This document shows, piece by piece, positions 601 to 60,430 of a stretch of 64,000 bases of DNA. The DNA is taken from NCBI RefSeq assembly GCF_004114375.1, contig NZ_CP034692.1, positions 1,674,001 through 1,738,000 on the forward strand, in the 5' to 3' direction. This DNA is from Halorubrum sp. BOL3-1 (GTDB lineage: Archaea; Halobacteriota; Halobacteria; Halobacteriales; Haloferacaceae). Below the pieces are notes generated by a model. It was not told where the DNA came from. It ran no database searches and saw nothing but the letters and a program-made list of their open reading frames with translations. The position numbers and the translations under genes were made by a program. How positions within the stretch are numbered: position 1 is the stretch's first letter; every line of letters begins with the position of its first letter.

Positions 601-906
601 GCGGTGGCGCGCGCCTGCGAGCGCCCATCGGGTGCGAAGAGCGCGTGCGAGGGACGCGGTGAGCGCTCGGAGAGCGCGAACCGCGAGGCTGGGGAGGCGT
701 GAGGCTGTGCGGTGCGGCTGCGGTGCGGGGCGGGACTCGAAGGGGCAGCCGCGAGGCGGGCAGAGGCGACGCGAGCACCGCAGGGAGTGAACGAAGTGAA
801 CGACCGAGGAGCGCGGCGAGCGTCTGCCCGCCTCGCGGCTGGGGCTTCGGTGGTCGTGTCCTCGGCAGCAACTACGTCGTAGCGAGCGGCTGGGGCTTCG
901 GTGGTC
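601..906 (+). repeat. Dispersed structured element, copy A (candidate ncRNA/MITE-like repeat)
   Basis: Fills the 428-nt gap between purL and the next gene. Parts in order: head GCGGTGGCGC at 601; hairpin 1 GCGCCC/GGGTGC (621-635); GCGAGGGA; hairpin 2 CGCGGT/ACCGCG (655-685); conserved block AGGCTGGGGAGGCGTGAGG (686-704); a GGGACTCGAAGGGGCAG-like block; an 18-bp perfect long stem with arms at 747-764 and 823-840; then the tail GGCTGGGGCTTCGGTGGTC, present twice (837-855 and 888-906). Related copies lie at 13344, 22437, 41434 and 60254. The reading frames inside are incidental. There is no clear TATA close to the head in this copy; the nearest AT-rich patch is about 535-545. Confidence 0.8.
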
Positions 907-41433: not shown

Positions 41434-41660
41434 GCGGTGGCGCGCGCCTCCGAGCGCCCAGTAGGGCGCGAGGGTCACGCGCGAGGGAGTCGCTGGCTCC
41501 CGGAGCGTAGCGGAGGGTGCCAGCGACGCGGCTGGGGAGGTGTGAGGCTGCGGTGCGGTTGCGGGCGGGTGGGACCCGAAGGGGCGGTCGCCGGCGCTGC
41601 GCGCCGGCTGCCAGCGAATCTTCGATTCTCGCTGCCGCGAGGCGGCCGTCGCCGTCAGTT
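41434..41660 (+). repeat. Dispersed structured element, copy D
   Basis: Within the 436-nt convergent gap between the DUF5781 gene and the CNNM gene. Head GCGGTGGCGCGCGCC at 41434; hairpin 1 GCGCCC/GGGCGC (41454-41469); GCGAGGGA; hairpin 2 GTCGCTGGC/GCCAGCGAC (41489-41527); GCGGCTGGGGAGGTGTGAGG; GGGTGGGACCCGAAGGGGC; then hairpins GCCGGCG/CGCCGGC and CAGCGAATC/GATTCTCGCTG. It lacks the clear tail GGCTGGGGCTTCGG of the others. The rest of the gap to 41784 carries TTATAATCGAT and TATTTATAAATG patches but no gene. Confidence 0.78.
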
Positions 41661-49520: not shown

Positions 49521-50447
49521 CTACAGGCGGTCGAACGCGTCGAAGTCGTCGCCGTCGTCGGAGTCGTCTGACTCGTCGGAGAGCGAAGAGTCACCCCCGT
49601 CACCGCCGGGGTAGCTCGCGTCGAGCCCGGCGGCGAGACCGGGACCGAGGTCGTACGTGTCCCGGACCGTCTGCGCGAGGACGCCGTCGCGGTCGAAGAC
49701 GACGTAGACGGCGACGAACTCGTGTGCCGCGGGGCGCAACACGAACACCTCTCGCGGGTCACCGTCGCTCCGCGAGTCGTTCACGCGCGCGACGAGCGGC
49801 TCGATCGGAAGCCGTCCCGACCGGACCTCCGCGAAGGTGTCGCTTCCGGGGGCGTCCGCGAAGAGGTACAGCGCGCCGTTGGGGTCGCCGTCGTTCGATC
49901 GGGTCGTGATCGACCCGACCGGCTCGCCCGCGGCGCGGACCTGTTGCCAGGTCTCGACGGCCGCCTCGAACATCCCTTCAATCCCGTCCGCGAAGCGGAA
50001 CCGGGTCTCGCGGACGACCTCGACCTCGCGGAAGCGGGCGGAGCCGTCGGTCCACGCCAGCGTCGCGTCGACGACGAAGCCGGGGCGGAGCGCGTCGACG
50101 GCCTCCGCGAGATCGCCCTCGTACCCGTCGGCGGTCGCGTAGAGGGGGTCGTACCGGTCCGCGGCGTCCGGATCGGTCGAGTCGACCGGCTCGTCTGCGA
50201 GTTCGACGAGGACGAACTCCTCGGCGTCGACGGAATCGGCGGTCACGGCGGAGTCGGCGGTCACGGCGGAGTCGGCGGTCGCGGCGGAGTCGGCGGTCGC
50301 GGCGGAGTCGGCGGTCGCGGCGGAATCGGCGGTCGCGGCGGAATCGGCGGTCGCGGCGGAATCGGCGGTCGCGTCCGCGTCGTCGTCGATGTCCGGTCGC
50401 CGGCGGCGGTCGTGGACGCGGAACCGGCCGCTCGTCGTCGGGTCCAT
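49521..50447 (-). CDS. Haloarchaeal protein with TADSA repeats (DUF6663-like)
   Basis: 308 aa. Residues about 25-71 are eight near-identical six-residue units (TADSAA/TADSAV), encoded by the 18-bp tandem repeat at 50233-50376. The remainder is a soluble acidic domain, with EFVLVELADEPVDST, FVVDATLAWTDGSARF and FVLRPAAHEFVAVYVVFDRDG, and an acidic Asp/Ser tail. The family name is recalled (DUF6663). No function known. Divergent from the methyltransferase gene. Confidence 0.75.
   Translation of the reverse strand: MDPTTSGRFRVHDRRRRPDIDDDADATADSAATADSAATADSAATADSAATADSAATADSAVTADSAVTADSVDAEEFVLVELADEPVDSTDPDAADRYDPLYATADGYEGDLAEAVDALRPGFVVDATLAWTDGSARFREVEVVRETRFRFADGIEGMFEAAVETWQQVRAAGEPVGSITTRSNDGDPNGALYLFADAPGSDTFAEVRSGRLPIEPLVARVNDSRSDGDPREVFVLRPAAHEFVAVYVVFDRDGVLAQTVRDTYDLGPGLAAGLDASYPGGDGGDSSLSDESDDSDDGDDFDAFDRL
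50233..50376. repeat. 18-bp tandem repeat inside the DUF6663-like gene (8 units)
   Basis: Unit GARTCGGCGGTCRCGGCG repeated eight times with one or two base changes between copies. Because 18 is a multiple of 3, changes in copy number keep the frame and only alter the length of the TADSA linker. On the plus strand the tract reads as glycine-rich, which is incidental. Confidence 0.85.
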
Positions 50448-60253: not shown

Positions 60254-60390
60254 GAGACGACCGCCGAAGCCCCGGCCGCACCTCACGCCTCCCCGGCCTC
60301 GTCGGCGGCTCCCGTTGGTCGCCGCCGACTCCCTCGCGTGTGGTGGCTCGCGGTCGCCTGCGGCGACCACTCGCAGGCACGCGCCACCGC
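60254..60390 (-). repeat. Dispersed structured element, copy E (short form, minus orientation)
   Basis: Between rfcS and the phosphoesterase gene. Read on the minus strand: head GCGGTGGCGCG from 60390; hairpin 1 GGTCGCC/GGCGACC (60368-60352); hairpin 2 GTCGGCGGC/GCCGCCGAC (60329-60301); GAGGCCGGGGAGGCGTGAGG; then directly the tail CGGGGCTTCGGCGGTCGTC. The long middle stem and the conserved GAGTGARCG region of A-C are missing. A TTTAAA (60407-60402) is 12-17 nt ahead of the head and also serves as the TATA for the phosphoesterase on the other strand. Confidence 0.78.
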
Positions 60391-60430
60391 AGCCGGTAGT
60401 GTTTAAATCACGTCGGCGTCGACGGTGGGT

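Follow-up and report, generated by a model that had tools for sequence, protein, structure and literature searches.

Five copies of an intergenic element in the window

The window, a 64,000-nt stretch of the Halorubrum sp. BOL3-1 genome, contains five copies of a large intergenic element (Table 1). A sequence-only reading of the same DNA had placed a structured family at these five positions, and all five copies are present there. The core GGGGAGGYGTGAGG has five exact matches in the window, one in each copy, where 0.00 were expected from 100 dinucleotide-preserving shuffles. Genes were called with a simple scorer of codon usage that had been trained on the window, and by these calls all five copies are intergenic, as that reading had also stated. 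The neighbouring genes are both on the minus strand for copy 1 and both on the plus strand for copy 5; they converge on copies 2 and 4 and diverge from copy 3. The further proposal of shared, ordered blocks stands in part. Only GCGAGGGA and the GGGGAGG core are common to all five copies, the head, tail, GGACTCGAAGGGGCAG and P3 arm being diverged or absent in some of them. Likewise, the suggested density of about one copy per 13 kb is correct for the window and drops to about one per 25 kb across the 3.37-Mb main contig. Separately, a tandem run of 9-bp units of the CGGCGGTCG/CGGCGGAAT type occupies window positions 50177-50403, within a called gene.

Table 1 Copies of the element in the window and their parts. 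Positions are those of the window; R1 is the covariance model described in the text.
Feature	Position	Strand	Description	Evidence and neighbouring genes
Copy 1	601-901	+	Complete, two tail units	R1 match 603-751; genes end/start at 504 and 933
Copy 1, head hairpin P1	607-648	+	CGAG facing CGAA	Predicted + strand fold; P1 covariation
Copy 1, conserved joint	647-654	+	GCGAGGGA	Near-invariant across alignments
Copy 1, variable hairpin P2	655-685	+		Predicted fold; helix 3 in 100-copy covariation analysis
Copy 1, conserved core	689-704	+	CTGGGGAGGCGTGAGG	Block location
Copy 1, long arm P3 and borders	732-850	+	GGGACTCGAAGGGGCAG, P3, closing tail CTGGGGCTTCGG	Predicted fold; P3 covariation, helices 5-10
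Copy 1, second tail unit	888-901	+	GGCTGGGGCTTCGG, 51 nt past first unit	Match 892-901
Copy 2	13344-13683	+	Complete, degenerate tail CTGGGACTATGG	R1 match 13346-13478; gene ends 13330, 13760
Copy 2, double-hairpin module	~13581-13645		Inside P3 arm	
Copy 3	22460-22771	-	Complete, diverged head; tail 22460-22469	R1 match 22761-22616; gene starts 22306, 22855
Copy 3, double-hairpin module	22495-22555		Inside P3 arm	
Copy 4	41434-41650	+	5′ half, short P3 remnant, tail absent	R1 match 41436-41590; gene ends 41348, 41785
Copy 5	60254-60392	-	P1, P2 and core fused straight to tail; GGACTCGAAGGGGCAG and P3 absent	R1 match 60388-60243

Architecture and variants

A complete element is about 250–300 nt long and comprises three arms (P1, P2 and P3) and a conserved, G-rich core that is mostly unpaired. 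Read 5′ to 3′ as RNA, the order is P1, GAGGGA, the variable P2, GGCUGGGGAGG, GGGACU..AAGGGGC, P3 and GGGGCUU(C/U). At the DNA level, the 5′ part consists of the head GCGGTGGCGCG, P1, GAGGGA, a P2 of varying sequence and length, GGCTGGGGAGGCGTGAGG and a GCGGT-rich spacer, and the 3′ part of GGGACTCGAAG-GGG-CAG, the long arm P3 and CTG-GGG-CTTCGG. Most copies have CGAG facing CGAG in P1 where copy 1 has CGAG facing CGAA, an interruption that would form tandem G.A pairs. Extra tail units often recur downstream, at 51, 63 or 69 nt. The core is kept across families, and the outer helix CGAAG/CUUCG is replaced by GAAAG/CUUUC in other genera, a compensatory change of two pairs. The sequence GGTGGGACTGAAA may resemble the 3′ end of type I-B CRISPR repeats, a lead towards a possible kinship.

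Several variants were observed. The P3 arms of several genera contain a double-hairpin module, GTGGTTCGA-hairpin-TCGTCATCACGA-hairpin-TCGAACGACA, in either orientation and with quite different hairpins; it is also found in copies L077, L094, L095, L100 and L102, and may be a small repeat in its own right. About ten copies, L003 and L021 among them, form a sub-family with extra conserved flanks, TCAGTACAGRTGACG... upstream and a GAAACAGCCG/CGGCTGTTTC hairpin with a TTCAAC end downstream. In a sub-type from genus g46 (L085, L089, L098 and L103), the 5′ half is retained and the 3′ half is different, TGCGGTTCTCATTTG...

A covarying fold on one strand

The earlier description of the sequence between the blocks as foldable is strongly borne out by covariation. 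Across 100 distinct copies, in an alignment fitted to the model, 96.6% of cells are paired, both partners have changed in 22 of the 26 pairs, and the score for covariation reaches 0.403, compared with 0.132 for shuffles and at most 0.086 for slid controls. The first 28 copies (aligned with MAFFT), the full-length set and copies from other genera agree, and none of 500 shuffles matched the observed pairing.

The fold also distinguishes the two strands. In A3, whose structure was written by hand from the visible stems, G.U cells outnumber A.C cells by 62 to 22 (p 1.5e-5), an excess that is weaker outside the window's genus (49:31, p 0.057). An even stronger count from A2 (58:7, constant U.G columns removed) was set aside as evidence because its structure came from RNAalifold, which is biased towards G.U on the strand it is given. 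For P2, the + strand folds better in 64 of 66 distinct sequences, and copy 1 as a whole has a predicted folding energy of -147.1 kcal/mol on the + strand (z -4.5) and -112.5 kcal/mol on the - strand (z -3.3). Taken together, the covariation, the excess of G.U over A.C and the advantage of the + strand in folding indicate that one strand is selected for its fold, probably as RNA. Of the two candidates offered by the sequence-only reading, a structured RNA family and a MITE-like element, the first is thus well supported, by covariation and strand asymmetry and also by the class-wide range and the purifying selection at a single-copy locus described below.

Distribution across haloarchaea

The family extends well beyond the window. 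A blastn search with copy 1 returned dozens of further copies in its own genome, and a covariance model (R1) that covers the 5′ half and was built from 28 copies and 151 positions has at least 134 matches there at E<=0.01 among the 150 candidates scored, all on the 3.37-Mb main contig. On the remaining three contigs, which total 294 kb, R1 has no matches, where 11.7 would be expected at the density of the main contig (P 8e-6). The main contig itself has a 0.37-Mb stretch, at ~2.93–3.30 Mb, with no copy of the element where about 15 would be expected; this may be an island or an integrated plasmid.

R1 matches are present in all 52 genomes of the window's genus, in 50 of 119 genomes of the family sample and in 101 of 292 genomes of the class sample. 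In a phylum sample of 197 genomes, the 12 with an R1 match all belong to the window's own family. A second covariance model built from other genera (R2, threshold E<=1e-4) matches 170 of the 292 genomes in the class sample, from 44 of 77 genera, leaving about 40% of the class genomes sampled without a match; E-values are rough, as the calibration was shortened. Hosts by name include Haladaptatus, Haloarchaeobius, Haloparvum, Halolamina, Natronorubrum, Natronococcus, Halobaculum, Halogranum, Halosimplex and Halorussus, and copy number across haloarchaeal genomes ranges from none to >130. One copy from a genome of another family (L075, genome G267) is a near-copy of the version in the window's genus, with an identical P2 stem, which suggests horizontal transfer. 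Among plasmid records there are two confident matches to the element, and among the phage records and viral contigs searched there are none; a viral or plasmid origin was rejected on these counts.

Placement relative to genes

Throughout the window's own genome, with genes called by the same scorer, 111 of 112 copies overlap no called gene, and a protein-coding origin was rejected on this count. The tail faces the 3′ end of a gene in 77 of the 112 (p 9e-5), and the head shows no such bias (54 to 58). Copies between tandem genes are antisense more often than sense (42 vs 19, p 0.004), and convergent pairs hold 35 copies vs 16 for divergent pairs (p 0.011). For the 58 of 112 copies whose head faces a gene start, there is no sense gene upstream whose 3′ UTR could carry the RNA. 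Enrichment between convergent genes is not in itself proof of function, since the BOX elements of Streptococcus pneumoniae show the same enrichment, which has been interpreted as tolerance of parasitic repeats (PMC3049150).

Single-copy loci, one of them under purifying selection

Genus g34 carries one or two copies per genome, mostly at two syntenic sites. The first is the interval between radB and phoU, in nine genomes (nine species), and the second lies between a tetrapyrrole methylase gene (read as cbiF-like) and cbiG, in seven genomes. Across the nine genomes, two of which have identical sequence, the core of the radB-phoU copy has a mean identity of 92.9%, compared with 75.7% at the third codon positions of radB; flank identity is 50% over the 26 nt before the copy and 66% after it. 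As the core is more conserved than both the third codon positions and the flanks, we conclude that the radB-phoU copy is kept by purifying selection. It lies in the sense orientation and starts 25 nt past the radB stop codon. The 3′ half that the element usually has is missing from it, and hairpins with T runs come next. In Haloferax volcanii, termination occurs at T stretches and some hairpins, and 3′ UTRs have a median length of 97 nt (PMC7237163); by analogy, the radB-phoU copy is probably within the radB 3′ UTR. In genus g6, four genomes have single copies 20–32 nt past the stop codon of a pyridine-nucleotide-disulphide oxidoreductase gene. In some genera the element is thus limited to between one and three fixed copies, of which at least one is under selection.

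The radB-phoU locus bears on the idea that the element is a family of trans-acting RNAs or a protein sponge, in which small RNAs from their own promoters would use the G-rich core to bind a protein or target RNAs. A core conserved across families would suit such a role, as would the TATA-like boxes found at fixed distances: in the window's own genome, 34 of 112 copies have one near -15 relative to the head, and many tails are followed by one at +24 or +32. With the usual archaeal spacing, however, the box left of the head would start the RNA inside P1, and it was rejected as a promoter for the entire RNA. The 26 nt that precede the radB-phoU copy are unconserved and show no conserved box either, and we consider a trans-acting role improbable.

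A role at the DNA level, for example as a gyrase, topoisomerase or SMC site acting as BIMEs do, seems more improbable still. Copies are dispersed on the chromosome, intergenic and enriched where convergent transcription meets, and their G-tracts are conserved on one strand, all of which would suit such a site; but a duplex binding site needs no selection on a single-strand fold, and genera with 1–3 copies are ill-suited to a chromosome-wide role.

Turnover of stems between copies

In the window's genus, element and stems change rapidly at fixed positions. Two orthologous sites were read in as many as 30 genomes from this genus: the element is present at the same position in most, absent from several, inverted in one and truncated in one. 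P2 identity among orthologous copies (0.647 and 0.631 at the two sites) is no different in scale from the 0.643 among the paralogs of one genome, and orthologous P2 stems diverge where the flanking gene is 90% identical. Seven P2 stems from these two sites in other species recur unchanged at different sites of the window's own genome, and in copy L022 the inner P3 arm is inverted. Homologous exchange among copies best accounts for the divergence of P2, the sharing of stems between sites and the inversion of an arm. Gene conversion between genome copies is very efficient in polyploid haloarchaea (PMC8223754), and we infer ectopic conversion among copies of the element. Two genomes (G039 and G050) each have the same P2 stem at the two query sites, but this was dropped as a case of within-genome conversion, because the query genes are adjacent there and one physical element had been counted for both. 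L109 (genome G008) is a whole-element inversion, at a site where other species have the element in the forward orientation.

Tests for mobile elements and known families

Rfam 15 has no match at the gathering score in the window, and none at E<=5 inside the elements at six loci; the earlier reading had likewise given no family name. The MITE-like candidate fared less well than the structured RNA, as the marks of a MITE (target-site duplication, inverted ends, presence on plasmids or in viruses) fail. In 92 copies, the longest word shared by a copy's own flanks is 5.8–6.8 nt long, compared with 5.6–6.6 nt for mismatched flanks, and no target-site duplication was found, one site being compatible with a short TTACA repeat. 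Terminal inverted repeats are absent, the head GCGGTGGCGCG and tail GGCTGGGGCTTCGG not being reverse complements. A MITE may nevertheless lie at the origin of the element.

A search of the window's own genome for Y1 transposase domains gave one, which lies more than 1.5 kb from any copy of the element, and a Y1/RAYT transposase was rejected as the mobiliser. With a length of 250–300 nt, three arms and no linked Y1, the element is indeed not a simple REP, as had been argued from the sequence, where an insertion sequence was set aside as well. It is very improbable that the element is the remnant of an RNA-guided or IS200/IS605-type element, in which a guide RNA or a transposon end would have outlived the loss of its protein. 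Such an origin could explain a large, repeated, folded RNA with a defined 3′ tail and no open reading frame, but in addition to the distant Y1 domain, the Rfam search gave no match to families of that kind and no copy examined has a gene inserted in it.

A selfish, non-autonomous repeat similar to BOX or bcr, tolerated between genes and with a fold that serves its own spread, is a close and serious rival, doubtful but a real possibility. It would account for a copy number that differs so widely between genomes, for the lack of a link to gene function, for the gain, loss and inversion seen at a single site, and for a bias towards convergent over divergent gene pairs that is like that of BOX. 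Less readily explained by selfish spread are the missing target-site duplication, the empty 294 kb of other contigs, the near-absence from plasmid records and absence from phage and viral collections, and a single copy that purifying selection maintains in a genus where the element has not proliferated.

Interpretation and comparison with known systems

The reading we tentatively favour, while giving it somewhat less than an even chance, is a structured cis element near transcript ends across haloarchaea that has been amplified and had its stems scrambled by recombination. The element would be transcribed and would act in cis in the transcripts around gene ends, either as a folded 3′-UTR module or as a boundary between transcription units, and a cellular protein would recognise it by its shape and core. 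In the window's genus it would have been amplified to >100 copies, among which ectopic recombination or gene conversion would swap, invert and delete stems. The analysis establishes the family, its covarying fold, its range, its position between genes, selection at one locus and the turnover of stems, whereas transcription, the cis role, a protein partner and recombination as the driving process are proposed. The cis role, suggested by position and orientation, is the most doubtful step, since antisense placement upstream of a gene is common among the copies. A bolder proposal, which we consider unlikely, is a new class of archaeal RNA built from G-tracts, possibly with a G-quadruplex core which molar K+ in the haloarchaeal cytoplasm would stabilise, that would be confined to 1–3 selected loci in some genera and would elsewhere have become SINE-like, with >100 scrambled copies generated by recombination and not by a transposase.

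Among known systems, BOX (PMC3049150) is similar in being modular, intergenic and present in many copies, with extensive secondary structure, variable internal modules and enrichment between convergent genes; about half of its insertions are old. We compare the two in kind and not by descent: BOX is confined to a few streptococci, whereas the haloarchaeal element is class-wide. BOX repeats its boxB units, whereas the haloarchaeal element has variable stems and repeats its tail units, and it differs further in having single-copy loci, one of them under measured purifying selection, a strongly covarying fold and a conserved unpaired core. The bcr1–bcr18 repeats of the Bacillus cereus group are also intergenic; bcr1–bcr3 are high-copy and MITE-like, whereas a function as RNA is predicted for bcr10 and bcr18, and roughly half of the copies overall are transcribed in UTRs or operon spacers (PMC3446304 and references in it). 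In contrast to bcr, one haloarchaeal family spans both states, single selected copies and high-copy repeats, with no target-site duplication. It is this class-wide range, together with a selected single copy alongside a scrambled high-copy state, that sets the element apart from both BOX and bcr. REP/REPIN sequences with RAYT (PMC3733652) are likewise high-copy intergenic palindromes, but REPs are 20–40 bp palindromes tagged GTAG or CGTC, compared with about 250–300 nt, a conserved core and no linked Y1 in the haloarchaeal element. Conserved intergenic haloarchaeal sRNAs of no assigned function (PMC7002113) are similar by description only, being haloarchaeal, multi-species and absent from Rfam. 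A search confined to open-access papers found no named haloarchaeal repeat family of this type, and an earlier description in subscription papers or preprints is possible.

The result is a large folded element across most haloarchaea, reaching >100 copies per genome in one genus, for which neither Rfam nor the open literature searched gives a name. Should it be transcribed, few structured RNA elements in archaea would outnumber it. It also has a bearing on how haloarchaeal intergenic regions, terminators and small RNAs are annotated. The selected radB-phoU copy and the scrambled family of many copies together form a natural test case for how an RNA with a function turns into an interspersed repeat when cells are polyploid and gene conversion is efficient.
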